The notes beneath the pieces are model-generated. The model ran no database searches. It was not told the origin of the DNA and was given only the letters and a program-made list of their open reading frames with translations. A stretch of DNA of 41,221 bases, from positions 1 through 41,221 of the forward strand of contig WTIA01000111.1 of assembly GCA_011522915.1 (NCBI GenBank), given 5' to 3'. This document shows, in pieces, positions 11,922 through 18,469 of this stretch. The first letter of the stretch is position 1, and each line of letters starts with the position of its first letter. A program made the translations under genes and the position numbers. This stretch comes from Methanobacteriota archaeon (GTDB lineage: Archaea; Thermoplasmatota; Poseidoniia; Poseidoniales; Poseidoniaceae).

Positions 11922-12446
11922 TCAGTTGTTTGCATCAGCGTATGCAGTAACTTCACGGATAACCTTGTCATCTTCGTTACCGACACCGATCTTTGTTAGA
12001 GTGACGTCTACATCACAGCCACCGTCTGCTCCATCACAAAGGTCTACATCGCCTTCGTTGATGGTAATTTCTTCAGATGTGCTCCAATAGTTGTCGTCGT
12101 CTGTTTCGTATGTGCAGTCTGCGGTTCCGTCATCCTTGGAAGCATCAGCGCAGGTTAGGGAGTTTCCTCCGTCAACTACGATTGATACCTTTAGGACGGA
12201 CCAGCTTAGGTCATCGCCTTGGGTCATCTTGATGTGTACTAGCTTTTCTCCAGCTGCATCAGACATTGTGCCTGCTGCGTCTCTGTCGTCGAACTGGTAC
12301 TTGTCTAGACCGCCGCCGGTTGAGTCGTCGGCTAGGCTAGATGCCCATACATACAATACACCAGCCAGAACTACAGTAATTGCAACCATTAGGATGGTAG
12401 CGATAACTGGGCTGACTGCCTCTTCGTTTCGGTTCTCGTTGTTCAT
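11922..12446 (-). CDS. Archaeal type IV pilin-like secreted protein
   Basis: Start set at the ATG at 12446 (MNNENRNEEAVSP), since AGGAGG sits eight bases before it; the track start at 12467 is a TTG that would include the ribosome site itself. The product is 174 aa. A short charged leader is followed by AVSPVIATILMVAITVVLAGVLYV, the class III signal and H-domain of archaeal pilins (Pilin_N family), which a PibD-type peptidase would cut around the EEA/VSP junction. The mature domain is acidic, beta-rich and contains four cysteines near residues 95-150, suggesting disulfides unusual for cytosolic archaeal proteins. No assembly ATPase or membrane platform gene is nearby, so it relies on machinery elsewhere. 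Likely adhesion pilus subunit. Confidence 0.88.
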   Translation of the reverse strand: MNNENRNEEAVSPVIATILMVAITVVLAGVLYVWASSLADDSTGGGLDKYQFDDRDAAGTMSDAAGEKLVHIKMTQGDDLSWSVLKVSIVVDGGNSLTCADASKDDGTADCTYETDDDNYWSTSEEITINEGDVDLCDGADGGCDVDVTLTKIGVGNEDDKVIREVTAYADANN

Positions 12447-12452
12447 ATTCTT

Positions 12453-12510
12453 GTCCTCCTCCCCCAAGCGGGGGATACATGTCCCACAACCGCCGCGCTA
12501 TATAATATCT
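12453..12510 (-). promoter_or_regulatory. Pilin promoter (TATA box) and Shine-Dalgarno
   Basis: On the minus strand the TATA box is the ATTATATAG run at about 12498-12506. It predicts transcription starting near 12475, followed by a short leader with GGGGGAGGAGGA ending eight bases before the ATG. The unusually complete ribosome site and TATA box suggest high expression. Confidence 0.65.
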
Positions 12511-12852: not shown

Positions 12853-13866
12853 TCACTCGACTGTAAGAATTTCCGGCCCACCTGAATTCACCAATATAGT
12901 GTGCTCAAACTGGCCGATCATTCCACCATCATGGCAACCAAGTGCGTGATACGTTTCAAGGAATCTTATGCTAATCAATTTCTTTACCAGTGCATTCCAT
13001 TTGCTTTGTCTGCTTGCTTCATCAGCTTCTGGGAATGGTTTTTCTAACATTGGGAATGCCCATCTCTCAGCAAATGGTAGAGTTGAATATCTCTCTTCAA
13101 GATTCCTAGCCAATTGCGCTCCAAGAGGTTTCAGTTGTTTCCTTGACAATGCCTTTCTCCAAAGCCCTTTCTTGGTAACTCTGTAGATGTTAGATGAGTT
13201 TTGGGCTCCTATATTCTTAATCATTCCACTGTTTCCAGTTGTATTGAATGGTTCTACTGCATACACAGAACCCTCTTCAACAACGCCTTTGAATCCAGGA
13301 TTGTCAGGCCCACATGCGTATGATGGAACACTTACACCTGCATGTAGTTCATAGGGCTTGAGTTGATGTCCGCACAAATTTCTGATCGGTTGAAAACCTG
13401 CATCTATTGATGGCTGGGCAGCTGCGGCACCGACCTTGTACCAAGGTGTTCCCGGGTGTAACATCTCGATTGCAGAATCCCTTGCTTCCTTTGCCGCCTT
13501 AATCTGTTCAGTGTGATTTCCTCTGTTTCCAACTTCTATTGTTAGAGCATTATCTCCAATGTGCCCATTGATGTGAACTCCAACGTCTAGTTTTACTAAG
13601 TCTCCATTTTGAAAGACCATCTCTCTCTCCCATCCTTCTGGAGCGATTACTGAATGGTCTGTTGTGTAGTGTGCTGCCAAATCATCGACGGCGATGGTGA
13701 CAGGGAATGCTGGGTTCCCCCCATTTCTTCTGATGAATCTCTCTGCGGAATTTATCACTTCGTCCCACGATTTGCCAACGGAAATCTCGTCTTTCATGGC
13801 CTCGAGGGTCCTGCGAGCAACATGGCCCGCATCGTGCCAATATTTCAGGCTGGAATCGTCCACCAT
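12853..13866 (-). CDS. map: Methionine aminopeptidase, type II
   Basis: Removes the initiator methionine from nascent proteins in the cytoplasm. The pita-bread metal ligands are all visible: Asp in KLDVGVHING, Asp in GHIGDNALTI, His in LCGHQLKPYELH, Glu in VYAVEPFNT and Glu in GQFEHTILV. The helical insertion between the His and the last Glu marks type II, as expected in archaea. At 337 aa it is longer than usual archaeal versions of about 295-300, the extra residues being in this insertion region (around RKALSRKQLKPLG and FPEADEASRQSKW). The ATG start lies inside the end of the TsaC-like gene (22-base overlap), so the two are probably co-translated as the end of a minus-strand operon. Confidence 0.95.
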   Translation of the reverse strand: MVDDSSLKYWHDAGHVARRTLEAMKDEISVGKSWDEVINSAERFIRRNGGNPAFPVTIAVDDLAAHYTTDHSVIAPEGWEREMVFQNGDLVKLDVGVHINGHIGDNALTIEVGNRGNHTEQIKAAKEARDSAIEMLHPGTPWYKVGAAAAQPSIDAGFQPIRNLCGHQLKPYELHAGVSVPSYACGPDNPGFKGVVEEGSVYAVEPFNTTGNSGMIKNIGAQNSSNIYRVTKKGLWRKALSRKQLKPLGAQLARNLEERYSTLPFAERWAFPMLEKPFPEADEASRQSKWNALVKKLISIRFLETYHALGCHDGGMIGQFEHTILVNSGGPEILTVE

Positions 13867-14426
13867 CTCATCACGTCATGAAGAGGTACAACGCCCTCTC
13901 TCATAACGGTTAGCCTCCAACCACGTATTTCCGCCTCATTTTTTTCTAATTTCACAAAGGTGCTACCAAGGCCATTAGGACAGATTCCAGGAACAAATTG
14001 GTCAATACCTAGAATTCTTGCCGCAACTTCAGTATCACATTCTGGATCAACTCCGGATTCGTTAGCCGATGTGGCAGTGATCGGTCCAAATTTCTCTGCG
14101 AGGGAAATAGCCTCTGGATGAGCAAAAACGCGGATAGCAACGTTGTTCCCGCCTAGCCTAGAATCAAGTTCTTGGTGTGCAGGAAGTATTGTTGTAATCC
14201 CACCTTTAACAAATTCAGAAAGGAATTCATTCAGAAAATTAGGAATCTCTACTATCTCACTAACTTGTTCCATATTTGCAACACCCAAGCTTACAGGCAT
14301 CGATTCTGGTCTGTTTTTTGTAGCGTATAGGTTGTCTAAACCAGATTTGATTGGTAAGCATCCCAAACCCGGTAAAGTACTGGTAGGATAAACCACTAAG
14401 CCACCGCTTTCGAGATGAGATTTCAT
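13845..14426 (-). CDS. tsaC: L-threonylcarbamoyladenylate synthase (TsaC/Sua5 family)
   Basis: Makes threonylcarbamoyl-AMP from threonine, bicarbonate and ATP, the first step of t6A modification at position 37 of ANN-decoding tRNAs. The 193-aa YrdC domain starts with GGLVVYPTSTLPGLGC (typical YPTET-type strand), has the K-x-R element in ATKNRPESMP and the nucleotide-binding TATSANESG near residue 120. Length matches single-domain TsaC; the C-terminal Sua5 domain is absent. KEOPS partners are not in the window. The start lies four bases after the stop of the 91-aa gene, and the end overlaps map. The YrdC family also contains YciO-like paralogues of uncertain function, so assignment is to the family with TsaC most likely. 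Confidence 0.88.
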   Translation of the reverse strand: MKSHLESGGLVVYPTSTLPGLGCLPIKSGLDNLYATKNRPESMPVSLGVANMEQVSEIVEIPNFLNEFLSEFVKGGITTILPAHQELDSRLGGNNVAIRVFAHPEAISLAEKFGPITATSANESGVDPECDTEVAARILGIDQFVPGICPNGLGSTFVKLEKNEAEIRGWRLTVMREGVVPLHDVMRWWTIPA

Positions 14427-14430
14427 TTAA

Positions 14431-14706
14431 TCACGCTCTGACCCATGATTCAACGTGTTCCTTAGCAATCCTTGCTGCTAATTCCTTATCCTCTGTTTTT
14501 ACTAACAATTTACCGCTTGGGTAAAGGGTAAGTTCTGCGGGTCCGGAAAAGGTCCATGCAAGTCTTGTTCTAATACCAACGGTGTAACCTGCACTTTCGA
14601 TTTTTCCACCGACTAAATCCAAATCGATTTTTTCGATTCCATCGACTTGAATCTGCCACGCAGATTTGTTACCACACATCTCTAAAACAAATGAATCGTC
14701 AGACAT
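14431..14706 (-). CDS. 91-aa protein resembling a single TATA-binding-protein repeat
   Basis: Small protein between the proline-rich gene (10-base gap) and tsaC (4-base gap), so part of the same transcript. I do not recognise it with certainty. Its second half, SGPAELTLYPSGKLLVKTE followed by an amphipathic helix ELAARIAKEHVESWV, follows the order of the strand-SGK-strand-helix end of a TBP repeat. KIDLDLVGGKIESAGY recalls the preceding LDL..helix segment. The length equals one TBP half. TBP-like single folds also occur as accessory domains in RNase HIII and DNA glycosylases, so a nucleic-acid-binding role is plausible but unproven. No membrane segment or metal site is seen. Confidence 0.7.
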   Translation of the reverse strand: MSDDSFVLEMCGNKSAWQIQVDGIEKIDLDLVGGKIESAGYTVGIRTRLAWTFSGPAELTLYPSGKLLVKTEDKELAARIAKEHVESWVRA

Positions 14707-14716
14707 AACGATCTCC

Positions 14717-15808
14717 TCAAATGTCTGGTTTTGGAGGTAAATCTCCTAGATTTTCAGTGGTTGCTGGAGGGCCAGCAGGTGGGCCTGACGGACCAGTTGG
14801 TGGCGTTGGTGGGCCTGGTGGGCCCGGTGGTGCTGGAGGAGTTGGTGGACCTGCTGGTGGCGTTGGTGGGCCTGGTGGGCCCGGTGGTGCTGGAGGAGTT
14901 GGTGGTCCTGCTGGCGGCGTTGGCGGGCCTGGTGGGCCCGGTGGTGCGGGAGGAGTTGGTGGACCTGCTGGTGGCGTTGGCGGACCTGCTGGTGGCGTTG
15001 GCGGACCTGGGGGACTAGGTGGGGTAAGCGGAGCAGATAGTGGGTCACTGGTAACAGGTTCGGGATTAGAAGGCGGAGTGGGTGGAGTAAGGGGAGCCAA
15101 TAGGTCTGCAGGAGGGGCCTGTTCAGCAATAGGAGAATCTCTGACCGATTGCGAACTAGGGGCATGAGCCAACAATGGGTCTTCGGTTCGAGATGGTTGC
15201 GATAATGGTGCGTCTCTTACCGGATTAGCATTCAAAATTGGAGCCTCACGTGCGTCGCTTGTGGAGGTCATTCCTGTAGATAATTTGTCTAAATCCGCCT
15301 TGATGAGAGTCTCTCCTCCCCTTGAATTTTCAGCAGAGTAGGAGGTCAATACAACCTTGGATGAGTCAATCATTTCTCTTTCCTTCACATTTCCAAAATC
15401 ACCGAGACTTTGGTCGAATGCACCGGTGAATAATGAAGAACCAATATTGCTTGATAGCTTTCTTCCTTGTGTGGCACTGTATTCGAAATCATAAGGGAAA
15501 GGCCCCATCTTAATTTCATTAGATGAGCCTGCTAGTACGAATGTCCATTCCCCTGAATCGAGTGGGAACTCAAAAGTCCAATCTCTCTGTATGCCTGGGC
15601 CAAGGCTTGTTACGCCTTCTTGGGAATGGTGTTTTGCACCTAGGTGTGTAATAACGGCGACGTCTAGGCCTCCCATCGGTACAGGTGCTTCGTTGGTGAT
15701 AGACACTTTTGCAATAACAACATCTTCGTCGTCATCATTGATGTCCATTCTGATATCAATTACCTCGGCTTGAAGAGAGCCACTACTTCCAGTTGTTGCT
15801 ACGCCCAT
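14717..15808 (-). CDS. Beta-sandwich protein with proline-rich repeat tail
   Basis: I choose the ATG at 15808 (MGVATTGSSG), which has GGTGAGG just upstream, over the GTG at 15853 used by the track; both are possible. Residues 1-130 look like an Ig/CARDB-like beta domain (VVIAKVSITNEAPVPMGGLDV). A low-complexity acidic/serine linker follows. The last ~120 residues are almost entirely Pro, Gly, Thr and Ala in a 19-residue repeat (AGPPTPPAPPGPPGPPTPP), repeated about three times with partial copies. There is no signal peptide, so it may be cytoplasmic or use the RDD membrane protein encoded upstream. Proline-rich tails of this type often bind partner proteins; function unknown. Confidence 0.75.
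   Translation of the reverse strand: MGVATTGSSGSLQAEVIDIRMDINDDDEDVVIAKVSITNEAPVPMGGLDVAVITHLGAKHHSQEGVTSLGPGIQRDWTFEFPLDSGEWTFVLAGSSNEIKMGPFPYDFEYSATQGRKLSSNIGSSLFTGAFDQSLGDFGNVKEREMIDSSKVVLTSYSAENSRGGETLIKADLDKLSTGMTSTSDAREAPILNANPVRDAPLSQPSRTEDPLLAHAPSSQSVRDSPIAEQAPPADLLAPLTPPTPPSNPEPVTSDPLSAPLTPPSPPGPPTPPAGPPTPPAGPPTPPAPPGPPGPPTPPAGPPTPPAPPGPPGPPTPPAGPPTPPAPPGPPGPPTPPTGPSGPPAGPPATTENLGDLPPKPDI
14770..15020. repeat. In-frame tandem repeat of 57 bases (G/T-rich on the plus strand)
   Basis: GGCGTTGGTGGGCCTGGTG-like units recur with a 57-base period, about three complete copies plus shorter pieces. They code for the proline-rich tail of the minus-strand gene. All unit boundaries keep the reading frame. 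Near-identical copies such as GGGCCTGGTGGGCCCGGTGG indicate recent expansion or gene conversion. Confidence 0.85.
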
Positions 15809-15867
15809 AACCTCACCATTGATGCGACTAACGCAGCCGTACTTGAATACCACCGTGCTACGACCGT

Positions 15868-16440
15868 TTATCTTAGGCCATTACGGGTATTTACTGGCAG
15901 CGACCAGTCAACTGCCGCAACTGTATGATTTGCTAAGTCTACAGGGCTTCTTTTTGTCTCATGTTTCCAAGTTTTGTAAACATCCCACAATCCAAGTAAA
16001 ACACCGATAAACGGAATCACGTACTTGACTTTGTAAGCGGCTCTTCTTCCCCAATGGTCGATTCCAAGTAAACTGCCATCGTCATGTACGATAGCAATTC
16101 TCATTGCTCTTTGGCCGAGAGATCTTCCATAATTTCTGCCGGTATACTTGAAGTAAAGCCAGTAGAATGTTAGATGAATTGTCCATGCACCTATCACATA
16201 GGGAGCTTGCGAGGAAAATAGAAGGTCAACAGCCATGAGGTAGTTGAAGAAAACCATTCTAGCAAATAGCGCTAAAATTAGCGTTACAAGAAAAGCGTCT
16301 AGAGCCAGTGCCACCATTCTCTTCCAAATAGGTGCAATTAGCATTCCTTCAGGAGCGGTAGCAGCAACTGCAGCCTGTGCCATGGTTCCCGGCTTGTGGA
16401 TGCTTACCGGAGAGTCCGCCATGGTTCGGGCTGGAGACAT
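15868..16440 (-). CDS. RDD family membrane protein
   Basis: A 190-aa protein with the RDD family core. It has IWKRMVALALDAFLV (the Arg and Asp that give the family its name) at about residue 40, then several hydrophobic helices, the GRSLGQRAMRIAIV element near residue 125 and the closing LANHTVAAVDW. RDD proteins are small integral membrane proteins; some are proposed transporters, but substrates are generally unknown. An N-terminal ~35-residue soluble leader precedes the first helix. It starts 19 bases after the helicase gene and ends 59 bases before the chosen start of the proline-rich gene, consistent with one transcript. Confidence 0.88.
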   Translation of the reverse strand: MSPARTMADSPVSIHKPGTMAQAAVAATAPEGMLIAPIWKRMVALALDAFLVTLILALFARMVFFNYLMAVDLLFSSQAPYVIGAWTIHLTFYWLYFKYTGRNYGRSLGQRAMRIAIVHDDGSLLGIDHWGRRAAYKVKYVIPFIGVLLGLWDVYKTWKHETKRSPVDLANHTVAAVDWSLPVNTRNGLR

Positions 16441-16459: not shown

Positions 16460-18469
16460 TCAGGAGTTTACAATGTGCCAAGCCATAAGATTGGAATCAG
16501 AAATCCAATCTAGCCAACTAGACCAAGTTGCATCATTGCGTAAGGTTCTATCATCTCCTACCACAATTAAGCCACGCTTAGCCCTTGTAAGGGCGACATT
16601 TAATCGACGGAAATCAGACAAGAAACCTACCTTTCCATTTTCGTTTGCTCTCACTGTTGATAAAACGATAATTTCTTTTTCTCTACCTTGATAACCGTCA
16701 ACCGACTTGATTTCTAATCCTTCAATCTCATCGTTTGTCATACTTCGAATTAGTCGAACCTGCCCAGCATAGGGAGAGATTACTCCGATATCCTCGGGAC
16801 TCAAATCTCCAGGCAACAATAAGTCGTTCACGATTTTGATAACAATCGCAGCCTCATCCATATTCGACCTTGAAGAACCAGCCTCTTCCTCAATCTCAGA
16901 GCCGTGAACAGGTACAAACGAGACCGGTTTATCCCAATCTGGCCACAAGAAACCCGCAGCAGGCGGCCTGTCAGCTCGCGTACAACCGTCTTCAAGCCGG
17001 TTTTCGTAAAATCTTGCAGAGGGGAACTCACGGATTGTTGGATGCATTCTGTATTGAGTTGTCAGCATGTGAGCGGGTATTCCATTTGACAACAATCTTT
17101 CAAACAGTGGGATGTTTAAGCCACCTTCTTCAGCTCTATGAGACGTTACTGTAGGTGGTAATTGCCTGTGGTCTCCAACCAAAATTAGTTGCCTTGCACC
17201 TTTTACTATCGGTACTAAAGAGGAAGGCTCTGTTGCTTGAGTGGCTTCATCGATAAGTACAATTGAGAACTTCCGATTTGCTATTGTGAAGTGACCTGCA
17301 CCGATATTTGTGGTGCATAGGACCTCTGCGCCCGACAACACTTCATCGGTAATTCGTTGTTCTAATTCACGAATTTCTCGATAATTTTTGTTGATATCCT
17401 TGTGCGCCATACCTCTATCTTTACCTTTCAAGTCGTGCAATTTGGACCTAATTCCCTCGGTCTCTTCCCGAATAAATGCTATTTCATCCTGCTTTGGATG
17501 TTTGGAAACGATGGCATCCAGCGTAGCCTCTCTCAAGGTTTCTCTAACTTTAACAGGTCTTCCAAATCTTACAGCTTTAACACCCAAGTCGATCAACCCC
17601 TCAAGCAGATTGTCAACGGCTACATTTGACTCGGCACAGGCTAGAATGGGACCTCTTCCCATATCGATCAGCGCTTTCAAAAGATGAACTGCAGTATGTG
17701 TTTTTCCGGTTCCAGGAGGGCCCTGTATCATCGTTAATCTCTGGTTTGATGCTGTTTCAATCGCTATTTTTTGGCTATCGTCTAACATCATTCCTTTGAG
17801 GTTTAGAGGTCTGATTTTCTGTCCATGGATTTCTGGTGGACGTTGTGCTGAAGTGGCTAGGTCGTGAGGCTGACATAACAGTAAGTCTCTCAGGACCGTA
17901 CCCCCGTCACCTTCTGTTGAATGAAAGGATATCAAAGCCTCATGCATTCTATCATGAGCTACTCTATTTGCTCCTTTGTCAAGTCTCCATCCACCCTTTC
18001 TCAAATCACTTGGTTTATCTTTTGCAACTATTCGAATACGTGAATTATTTCTGTCTAAGACGACTCCTTCGATTACCTTCTCGCCCCAAGGCCTAGCCCT
18101 AGAAATGATGACCATGTCTCCATGACCAAATCTGTGGAAGGGAAGCGGGCCACCTCCTCTAACCTCAAAAACCAAAATTGAGTCACCGAAAAATCTGCCA
18201 GAGGTTCTACCAGTCAGGTCAAATAAGGCTAAGCCTGCATTAACCATTTTTTGTTTTGACCAACTTTTCCATCTTTCCTGAACTTGATTTAATTCATCAT
18301 CCAGTTCGATTTGAATAAGGTTTGTGAAGCATTCAAAGTGGTCTTGGGACTTCCTCCATTTGGCTTCATGTGCAATCTTGGTAGTCTTGTTTCCACTAGG
18401 CCGAGTGTTCATTCTTCGCACACCACCCCTCTCGGCCATAGCAAAACGGTAAAGGCGCTGGTATAGCAT
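16460..18469 (-). CDS. Superfamily 1 helicase, UPF1/DNA2/IGHMBP2-like
   Basis: A 669-aa ATP-dependent nucleic-acid helicase. An N-terminal beta-barrel-rich region (residues about 50-220, with GDMVIISRARPWG) resembles the 1B/RNA-binding part of IGHMBP2-type enzymes. The core then shows motif I GPPGTGKTHT (about 250), motif II DEATQ, motif III GDHRQLPPTV, motif IV QYRMHP, motif V SVDGYQGREKEIIVLS and motif VI VALTRAKRGL. No iron-sulfur nuclease domain of true Dna2 is seen. The start is uncertain: in-frame ATGs at 18439 and 18412 would trim 10 or 19 basic residues. It is the first gene of the minus-strand run ending in map. Likely roles are RNA or DNA processing; polarity is expected 5'-3' from the family. 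Confidence 0.92.
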   Translation of the reverse strand: MLYQRLYRFAMAERGGVRRMNTRPSGNKTTKIAHEAKWRKSQDHFECFTNLIQIELDDELNQVQERWKSWSKQKMVNAGLALFDLTGRTSGRFFGDSILVFEVRGGGPLPFHRFGHGDMVIISRARPWGEKVIEGVVLDRNNSRIRIVAKDKPSDLRKGGWRLDKGANRVAHDRMHEALISFHSTEGDGGTVLRDLLLCQPHDLATSAQRPPEIHGQKIRPLNLKGMMLDDSQKIAIETASNQRLTMIQGPPGTGKTHTAVHLLKALIDMGRGPILACAESNVAVDNLLEGLIDLGVKAVRFGRPVKVRETLREATLDAIVSKHPKQDEIAFIREETEGIRSKLHDLKGKDRGMAHKDINKNYREIRELEQRITDEVLSGAEVLCTTNIGAGHFTIANRKFSIVLIDEATQATEPSSLVPIVKGARQLILVGDHRQLPPTVTSHRAEEGGLNIPLFERLLSNGIPAHMLTTQYRMHPTIREFPSARFYENRLEDGCTRADRPPAAGFLWPDWDKPVSFVPVHGSEIEEEAGSSRSNMDEAAIVIKIVNDLLLPGDLSPEDIGVISPYAGQVRLIRSMTNDEIEGLEIKSVDGYQGREKEIIVLSTVRANENGKVGFLSDFRRLNVALTRAKRGLIVVGDDRTLRNDATWSSWLDWISDSNLMAWHIVNS

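Follow-up and report, generated by a model that had tools for sequence, protein, structure and literature searches.

Here we report an archaeal gene whose product is very probably a stand-alone single domain of the TATA-binding protein (TBP) fold and, judged by sequence comparison, corresponds as a free protein to the TBP-like domain at the C-terminus of long ThiF/MoeB E1 enzymes. The gene lies in a stretch of 41,221 nucleotides (the window) from a member of the Poseidoniales. For its family, called half-TBP below, neither Pfam nor NCBIfam was found to contain a model. The C-terminal tail of long ThiF/MoeB E1 enzymes had already been called TBP-like by Makarova and Koonin (2010; PMC2948915), who also counted E1-TBP fusions and free TBP-like proteins of haloarchaea that end in GG among the possible ubiquitin-like (Ubl) analogues; that work already anticipated the fold relation.

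Gene, gene order and conservation

The features of the gene string are listed in Table 1. The translation of the 91-aa reading frame contains SGKLLVKTE and ELAARIAKEHVESW. A GAGGAG motif is located at the boundary with the upstream proline-rich gene and overlaps the stop codon of that gene, whose product matched no known family. The next gene 3', tsaC, begins 4 nt after the half-TBP gene on the same strand, and its end is overlapped by 22 nt by the gene of a methionine aminopeptidase (MetAP)-like protein, which matched TIGR00501 with E=2.3e-59, below the cut-off of that model. The gene order in Poseidoniales is fixed (IGHMBP2-type helicase, RDD, proline-rich protein, half-TBP, TsaC, MetAP), and all six genes are on the same strand in the window. 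TsaC and MetAP were found downstream of half-TBP in 68/68 and 18/18 testable loci (86/86), so that the operon with these two genes named in a preliminary description of the stretch stands as an operon-like string. The gene with the GPPTPP/AGPP repeats seems to break assemblies, and the contigs of many relatives stop approximately 60-200 bp from the half-TBP start (e.g. loci L027, L066, L068, L083 and L091).

Table 1. Positions of the half-TBP gene, its parts and its neighbours in the window.
Feature	Position	Strand	Evidence or remark
IGHMBP2-family SF1 helicase, same gene string	16460-18469	minus	TIGR00376 E=4.6e-129
RDD-family membrane protein, same gene string	15868-16440	minus	PF06271 E=3.1e-13
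Upstream protein with globular N-terminal part and GPPTPP/AGPP proline-rich repeats	14717-15853	minus	conserved upstream in 57/57 f1 loci
GAGGAG, Shine-Dalgarno-like	14713-14718	minus	6 nt before ATG; read from sequence; putative function
Single TBP-repeat protein CDS, 91 aa	14431-14706	minus	ATG-started ORF
Cys11 codon of the 91-aa protein	14674-14676	minus	61-sequence alignment
PSGK motif, residues 63-66 of the 91-aa protein	14509-14520	minus	Gly invariant; corresponds to TBP F-x-SGK turn
TsaC/YrdC-type L-threonylcarbamoyladenylate synthase (t6A tRNA modification)	13845-14426	minus	PF01300 E=1.5e-28; synteny 86/86
Type II methionine aminopeptidase (MetAP)-like protein	12853-13866	minus	PF00557 E=1.7e-24; synteny 86/86
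Small protein with SPVIATILMVAITVVLAGVLYVWA segment, typical of archaeal type IV pilin-like proteins	11922-12467	minus	conserved downstream of MetAP (cluster 5, 45 loci)

The half-TBP gene is real, conserved and under purifying selection. A single-sequence search gave strong matches, of 32-85% identity, in 88 of 194 Poseidoniales genomes; both families of the order have homologues, over all at about 30-90% identity, and pairwise dN is approximately 0.09-0.12 where dS is approximately 2, i.e. saturated. The gene is single-copy in the available sequence of the source genome. Several genera of the second Poseidoniales family yielded no half-TBP gene, and incomplete assemblies account for this only in part. 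Viral contigs that were searched contained no relative, and a viral origin is therefore unsupported. Two bins each contained two divergent copies, G057 on contigs C16 and C39 (L072, L073) and G181 on contigs C5 and C3 (L030, L074); the protein on C5 of G181 is identical to that of G082, so that a binning error is possible.

Relationship to TBP

As a single query, the window protein matched nothing in Pfam, NCBIfam or PDB, and there was no match to the TBP family (PF00352), so that the Pfam gathering threshold was not reached. PF00352 was matched by 3 of 44 close relatives (best E=2.9e-4), and one distant relative (L143) passed the threshold (23.8 vs 22.9 bits). Two profiles were used, one built from Poseidoniales half-TBP sequences alone, which contains no E1 tail (A1), and one widened from it across the Thermoplasmatota, which contains one archaeal E1 tail (A3). 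With A1, TBP was the best match in PDB at a level that is suggestive only (E=0.045), as was the hhalign comparison with TBP (prob 33). With A3, the best 16 PDB matches were all TBP, led by that of M. jannaschii (2z8u, E=1.3e-8), and both TBP repeats were matched. The HMM-HMM comparison with the TBP family proposed in the preliminary description gave an hhalign prob of 91 for A3 against a TBP-repeat alignment, and <=1.2 for 26 decoy alignments of unrelated neighbour genes. At the level of sequence profiles, homology to TBP is clear, and it was settled by the widening from Poseidoniales to the phylum.

An AlphaFold2 model of the 91-aa protein (19-sequence alignment) had a pLDDT of 82.5 and a pTM of 0.70, with the elements E15-19, H29-38, E42-46, E51-54, E58-61, E67-71 and H74-88; residues 1-13, including Cys11, were of low confidence (pLDDT < 50). 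The predicted model has the beta-alpha-4beta-alpha order of a TBP repeat, and the five-stranded sheet with helix that had been proposed as a test of the fold is thus present as E-H-E-E-E-E-H, with TBP as the best match in both structure and profile. The best PDB match in Foldseek was yeast TBP (1tbp, prob 0.97), along with RNase H3 (3vn5, prob 0.96); since the E-values were weak (0.09) and the TM-score was approximately 0.5, the fold search alone is supportive and not decisive. The A3 profile matches and the predicted fold together uphold the earlier observation of a stand-alone single TBP-type repeat, which proves to be a real gene on the minus strand (no strand had been given). At 91 aa the protein has one repeat, and the two tandem repeats of TBP are absent. 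Genome G000, which has a canonical TBP on contig C82, also encodes a divergent 196-aa two-repeat TBP-like ORF, below the Pfam cut-off, on another contig (C34:23123-23575; L094, L095), with the ThiI gene of this genome approximately 7 kb away on that contig.

Relationship to ThiF/MoeB E1 enzymes

The A1 search of the phylum recovered single-domain relatives in many other families of Thermoplasmatota. The ORF is stand-alone in the window and in 39 of the 40 distant relatives fetched; in the one E1 fusion (L181), a ThiF/MoeB-type enzyme of 346 aa, the half-TBP domain makes up the last 80 residues. Model NF009123 (MoeB/ThiF, 338 positions) covers this fusion end to end, and the tail therefore belongs to a known enzyme architecture. 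PDB matches to the fusion reached no further than about residue 257, so that no solved structure of the tail was found by sequence. The gene directly downstream of the fusion encodes a 325-aa PP-loop enzyme of another kind, which contains several Cys motifs and is only weakly similar to ThiI. Other apparent fusions among the distant relatives (open frames up to 490 aa) were rejected as GC-rich read-through, because their extra part is low-complexity and Arg/Pro/Gly-rich and the real upstream gene lies in another frame.

The tails of bacterial ThiF/MoeB enzymes (Paenibacillus, Bacillus, Priestia and others) have an LCGR..VQI...GR motif pattern, and in bacteria the genes of E1 enzymes with TBP-like tails are located in operons for thiamine (with thiS and thiazole synthase) or molybdopterin (with moaD and moaE). 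With A1, bacterial E1 tails scored a median of 15.7 bits, the TBP repeats 7.9 and 5.9 bits, and shuffled sequences at most 5.4 bits; with A3 the respective values were 35.2, 15.9 and 10.1, and 7.8 bits. By these profile scores, half-TBP has a closer relative in the ThiF/MoeB E1 tail than in TBP. From Poseidoniales themselves, 12 E1 loci were fetched, of which 10 were readable; judged by eye, each of these has a rhodanese-like end, and none matched the half-TBP domain. This is compatible with a putative role of half-TBP as a stand-in for a domain that is missing from the E1 of the same genome.

The family alignment of 61 sequences comprised Poseidoniales members, distant stand-alone proteins and the E1 fusion. 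Its only invariant columns, also among those of A3, are a cysteine (Cys11 in the window protein; 61/61, E1 fusion included) and the glycine of the SG[KR] turn. The cysteine is aligned in the bacterial E1 tails as well (LCGRDTVQI), and TBP has nothing aligned at its position. The phenylalanine residues of the TBP FPG motif intercalate into TATA DNA. The FPG phenylalanine is present in 57 of 61 TBP repeats, whereas the half-TBP family mostly has D, N, R or K in its place (R in the window protein); at the second phenylalanine position the family mostly has Y or F. The absence of the FPG phenylalanine and the additional invariant cysteine argue against TATA-type DNA binding by half-TBP.

Gene neighbourhoods

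The distant stand-alone loci elsewhere in Thermoplasmatota (n=39) adjoin a THUMP-less ThiI in 18 cases and a SufS/CsdA-type cysteine desulfurase in 9, with one or both in 25/39. The short ThiI (PF02568, approximately 207 aa) has its PP-loop at the N-terminus, lacks a THUMP domain and contains CxxC and CC motifs, and its CxxC-plus-Cys pattern resembles that of methanogen ThiI, which holds an Fe-S cluster (PMC5372739). In a further 12/39 loci the neighbour is an AAA_17-type kinase-like gene and not a sulfur enzyme; of the other two, one has a ThiI at a distance of 3 kb, and the other has no ThiI, desulfurase or kinase-like gene. An AAA_17/AAA_18 nucleotide-kinase-like gene precedes the stand-alone domain in a second set of Thermoplasmatota families (L152, L154, L158, L164, L168, L169, L172, L174-L176, L179, L180).

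The Poseidoniales half-TBP gene is not adjacent to ThiI, SufS or E1. It was present in 45 of 56 genomes with ThiI vs 43 of 138 genomes in which ThiI was not detected (Fisher p=4e-10, on incomplete genomes and without phylogenetic correction). ThiI was rejected as an obligate partner in this order because it was not detectable in 43 of the 88 carriers; 11 ThiI-bearing genomes had no half-TBP, again among incomplete genomes.

Possible function

The closest relatives of half-TBP are E1 tails and lone proteins beside sulfur-transfer enzymes, so that the protein more probably assists sulfur transfer or tRNA modification than acts as a transcription factor. We tentatively favour such an accessory role; the constant position of TsaC, a tRNA-modification enzyme, 3' of the Poseidoniales gene was counted in its favour. 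More doubtfully, and on the strength of the alignment, half-TBP might carry persulfide on its cysteine. The sheet/helix body would dock on a partner, which might be a PP-loop sulfurtransferase of the ThiI type, a cysteine desulfurase of the SufS type or some other enzyme of tRNA modification; sulfur would be carried or relayed, e.g. as persulfide, by the invariant cysteine near the N-terminus. It is possible, at the same low level of confidence, that the TBP fold was turned into a persulfide carrier altogether, with free single repeats, each with the invariant cysteine, passing sulfur from cysteine desulfurase to THUMP-less ThiI and the fused domain acting in ThiF/MoeB. The cysteine may instead be structural or metal-binding, which counts against a sulfur carrier. 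Also weighing against the accessory role are the Poseidoniales carriers without detectable ThiI, the absence of ThiI, SufS and E1 beside the gene in that order, and the 12 distant relatives with a kinase-like neighbour. By extrapolation from homology we infer that the TsaC-linked Poseidoniales protein, as a putative ortholog, would share the role of the ThiI-linked distant relatives, and likewise the identity of its partner.

Binding of RNA or tRNA by the TBP-type sheet, which would replace THUMP for the short ThiI and help TsaC or other tRNA enzymes while the cysteine is structural, appears rather unlikely. It would accord with the start of the neighbouring ThiI proteins at the PP-loop, with the adjoining TsaC in Poseidoniales and with the nucleic-acid binding of the TBP-like domain of RNase H3, which is among the best fold matches (PMC4132731, PMC10688271). 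However, the domain also occurs fused to ThiF/MoeB, whose substrates in thiamine and molybdopterin synthesis are not RNA, nucleic acid is not bound by some TBP-fold domains (CPSF73/100; PMC10688271), and the invariant cysteine is left unexplained. The last point also weighs on a docking module without Cys chemistry, i.e. a TBP-fold adaptor for keeping enzymes in contact, as the E1 C-terminal domains might do, because the cysteine is the only invariant residue besides the turn glycine. The fusion to E1 enzymes, the protein contacts of the TBP-fold CTD2/CTD3 of CPSF proteins (PMC10688271) and the varied neighbours, which suggest a generic adaptor, agree with such a module, yet we consider it unlikely.

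The preliminary description had suggested that a free single repeat could dimerise into a pseudo-TBP or bind RNA, and that it would bear on the origin of the TBP duplication. A relic of that duplication or a pseudo-TBP is not the best reading, since the E1 tail scores higher than TBP, the FPG phenylalanine is lacking, the invariant cysteine is absent from TBP, and relatives are located beside sulfurtransferases. A transcription factor that would bind promoter DNA or TFB as a homodimeric pseudo-TBP is accordingly very improbable and among the least likely readings: homology to TBP repeats and the predicted fold speak for it, but the family mostly has D, N, R or K at the FPG position, its relatives do not adjoin transcription genes, and a canonical two-repeat TBP is encoded in the same genome. 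More improbable still is the role proposed for haloarchaeal arCOG06308, that of a TBP-fold protein acting as ubiquitin-like modifier or as thiocarboxylate carrier; it would fit the possible Ubl analogues listed in 2010 (PMC2948915), but neither the window protein, which ends in WVRA, nor the relatives listed have a C-terminal GG.

With the sulfur-related accessory role as the preferred reading, the half-TBP family is a concrete candidate sulfur carrier for archaeal thiolation, with one residue to mutate. The existence of an intermediate sulfur carrier for archaeal 4-thiouridine synthesis was stated to be open in a 2017 review (PMC5372739), and a persulfide-carrying TBP fold would, if true, fill this missing step of archaeal tRNA thiolation. 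The family also means that the TBP repeat persists in single copy, marked by a cysteine signature, within sulfur-related gene clusters, and half-TBP and the E1 tails form a second branch of the superfamily to be weighed in discussions of TBP origin.

Comparison with known systems

TusA/rhodanese-type persulfide carriers are likewise small proteins with an invariant cysteine, and relatives of half-TBP occur beside a desulfurase and a PP-loop sulfurtransferase; their fold is unrelated, and the carrier activity of half-TBP is putative. The N-terminal domain of RNase HIII (DUF3378, PF11858) resembles half-TBP in the fold search (3vn5), and 2 of 44 members matched it weakly (E=0.083). The window protein had no significant match to DUF3378, which is fused to RNase H whereas half-TBP stands alone, and the sequence support is not comparable to that for TBP. 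The halobacterial arCOG06308, likened here by its description, is also a small free TBP-fold protein, proposed for Ubl/E1 systems (PMC2948915); unlike the window protein, which is from another lineage, it ends in GG. The TBP repeat (PF00352) has the same predicted fold and a significant profile match, but TBP combines two repeats with the FPG phenylalanine, whereas the window protein has a single repeat with the extra invariant cysteine instead. The tail of ThiF/MoeB E1 enzymes (NF009123/PRK12475) is homologous over the whole domain and has the N-terminal LC-G motif, the [SD]G[KR] turn and the C-terminal helix in common with the window protein, which is free where the tail is fused to an E1 core.
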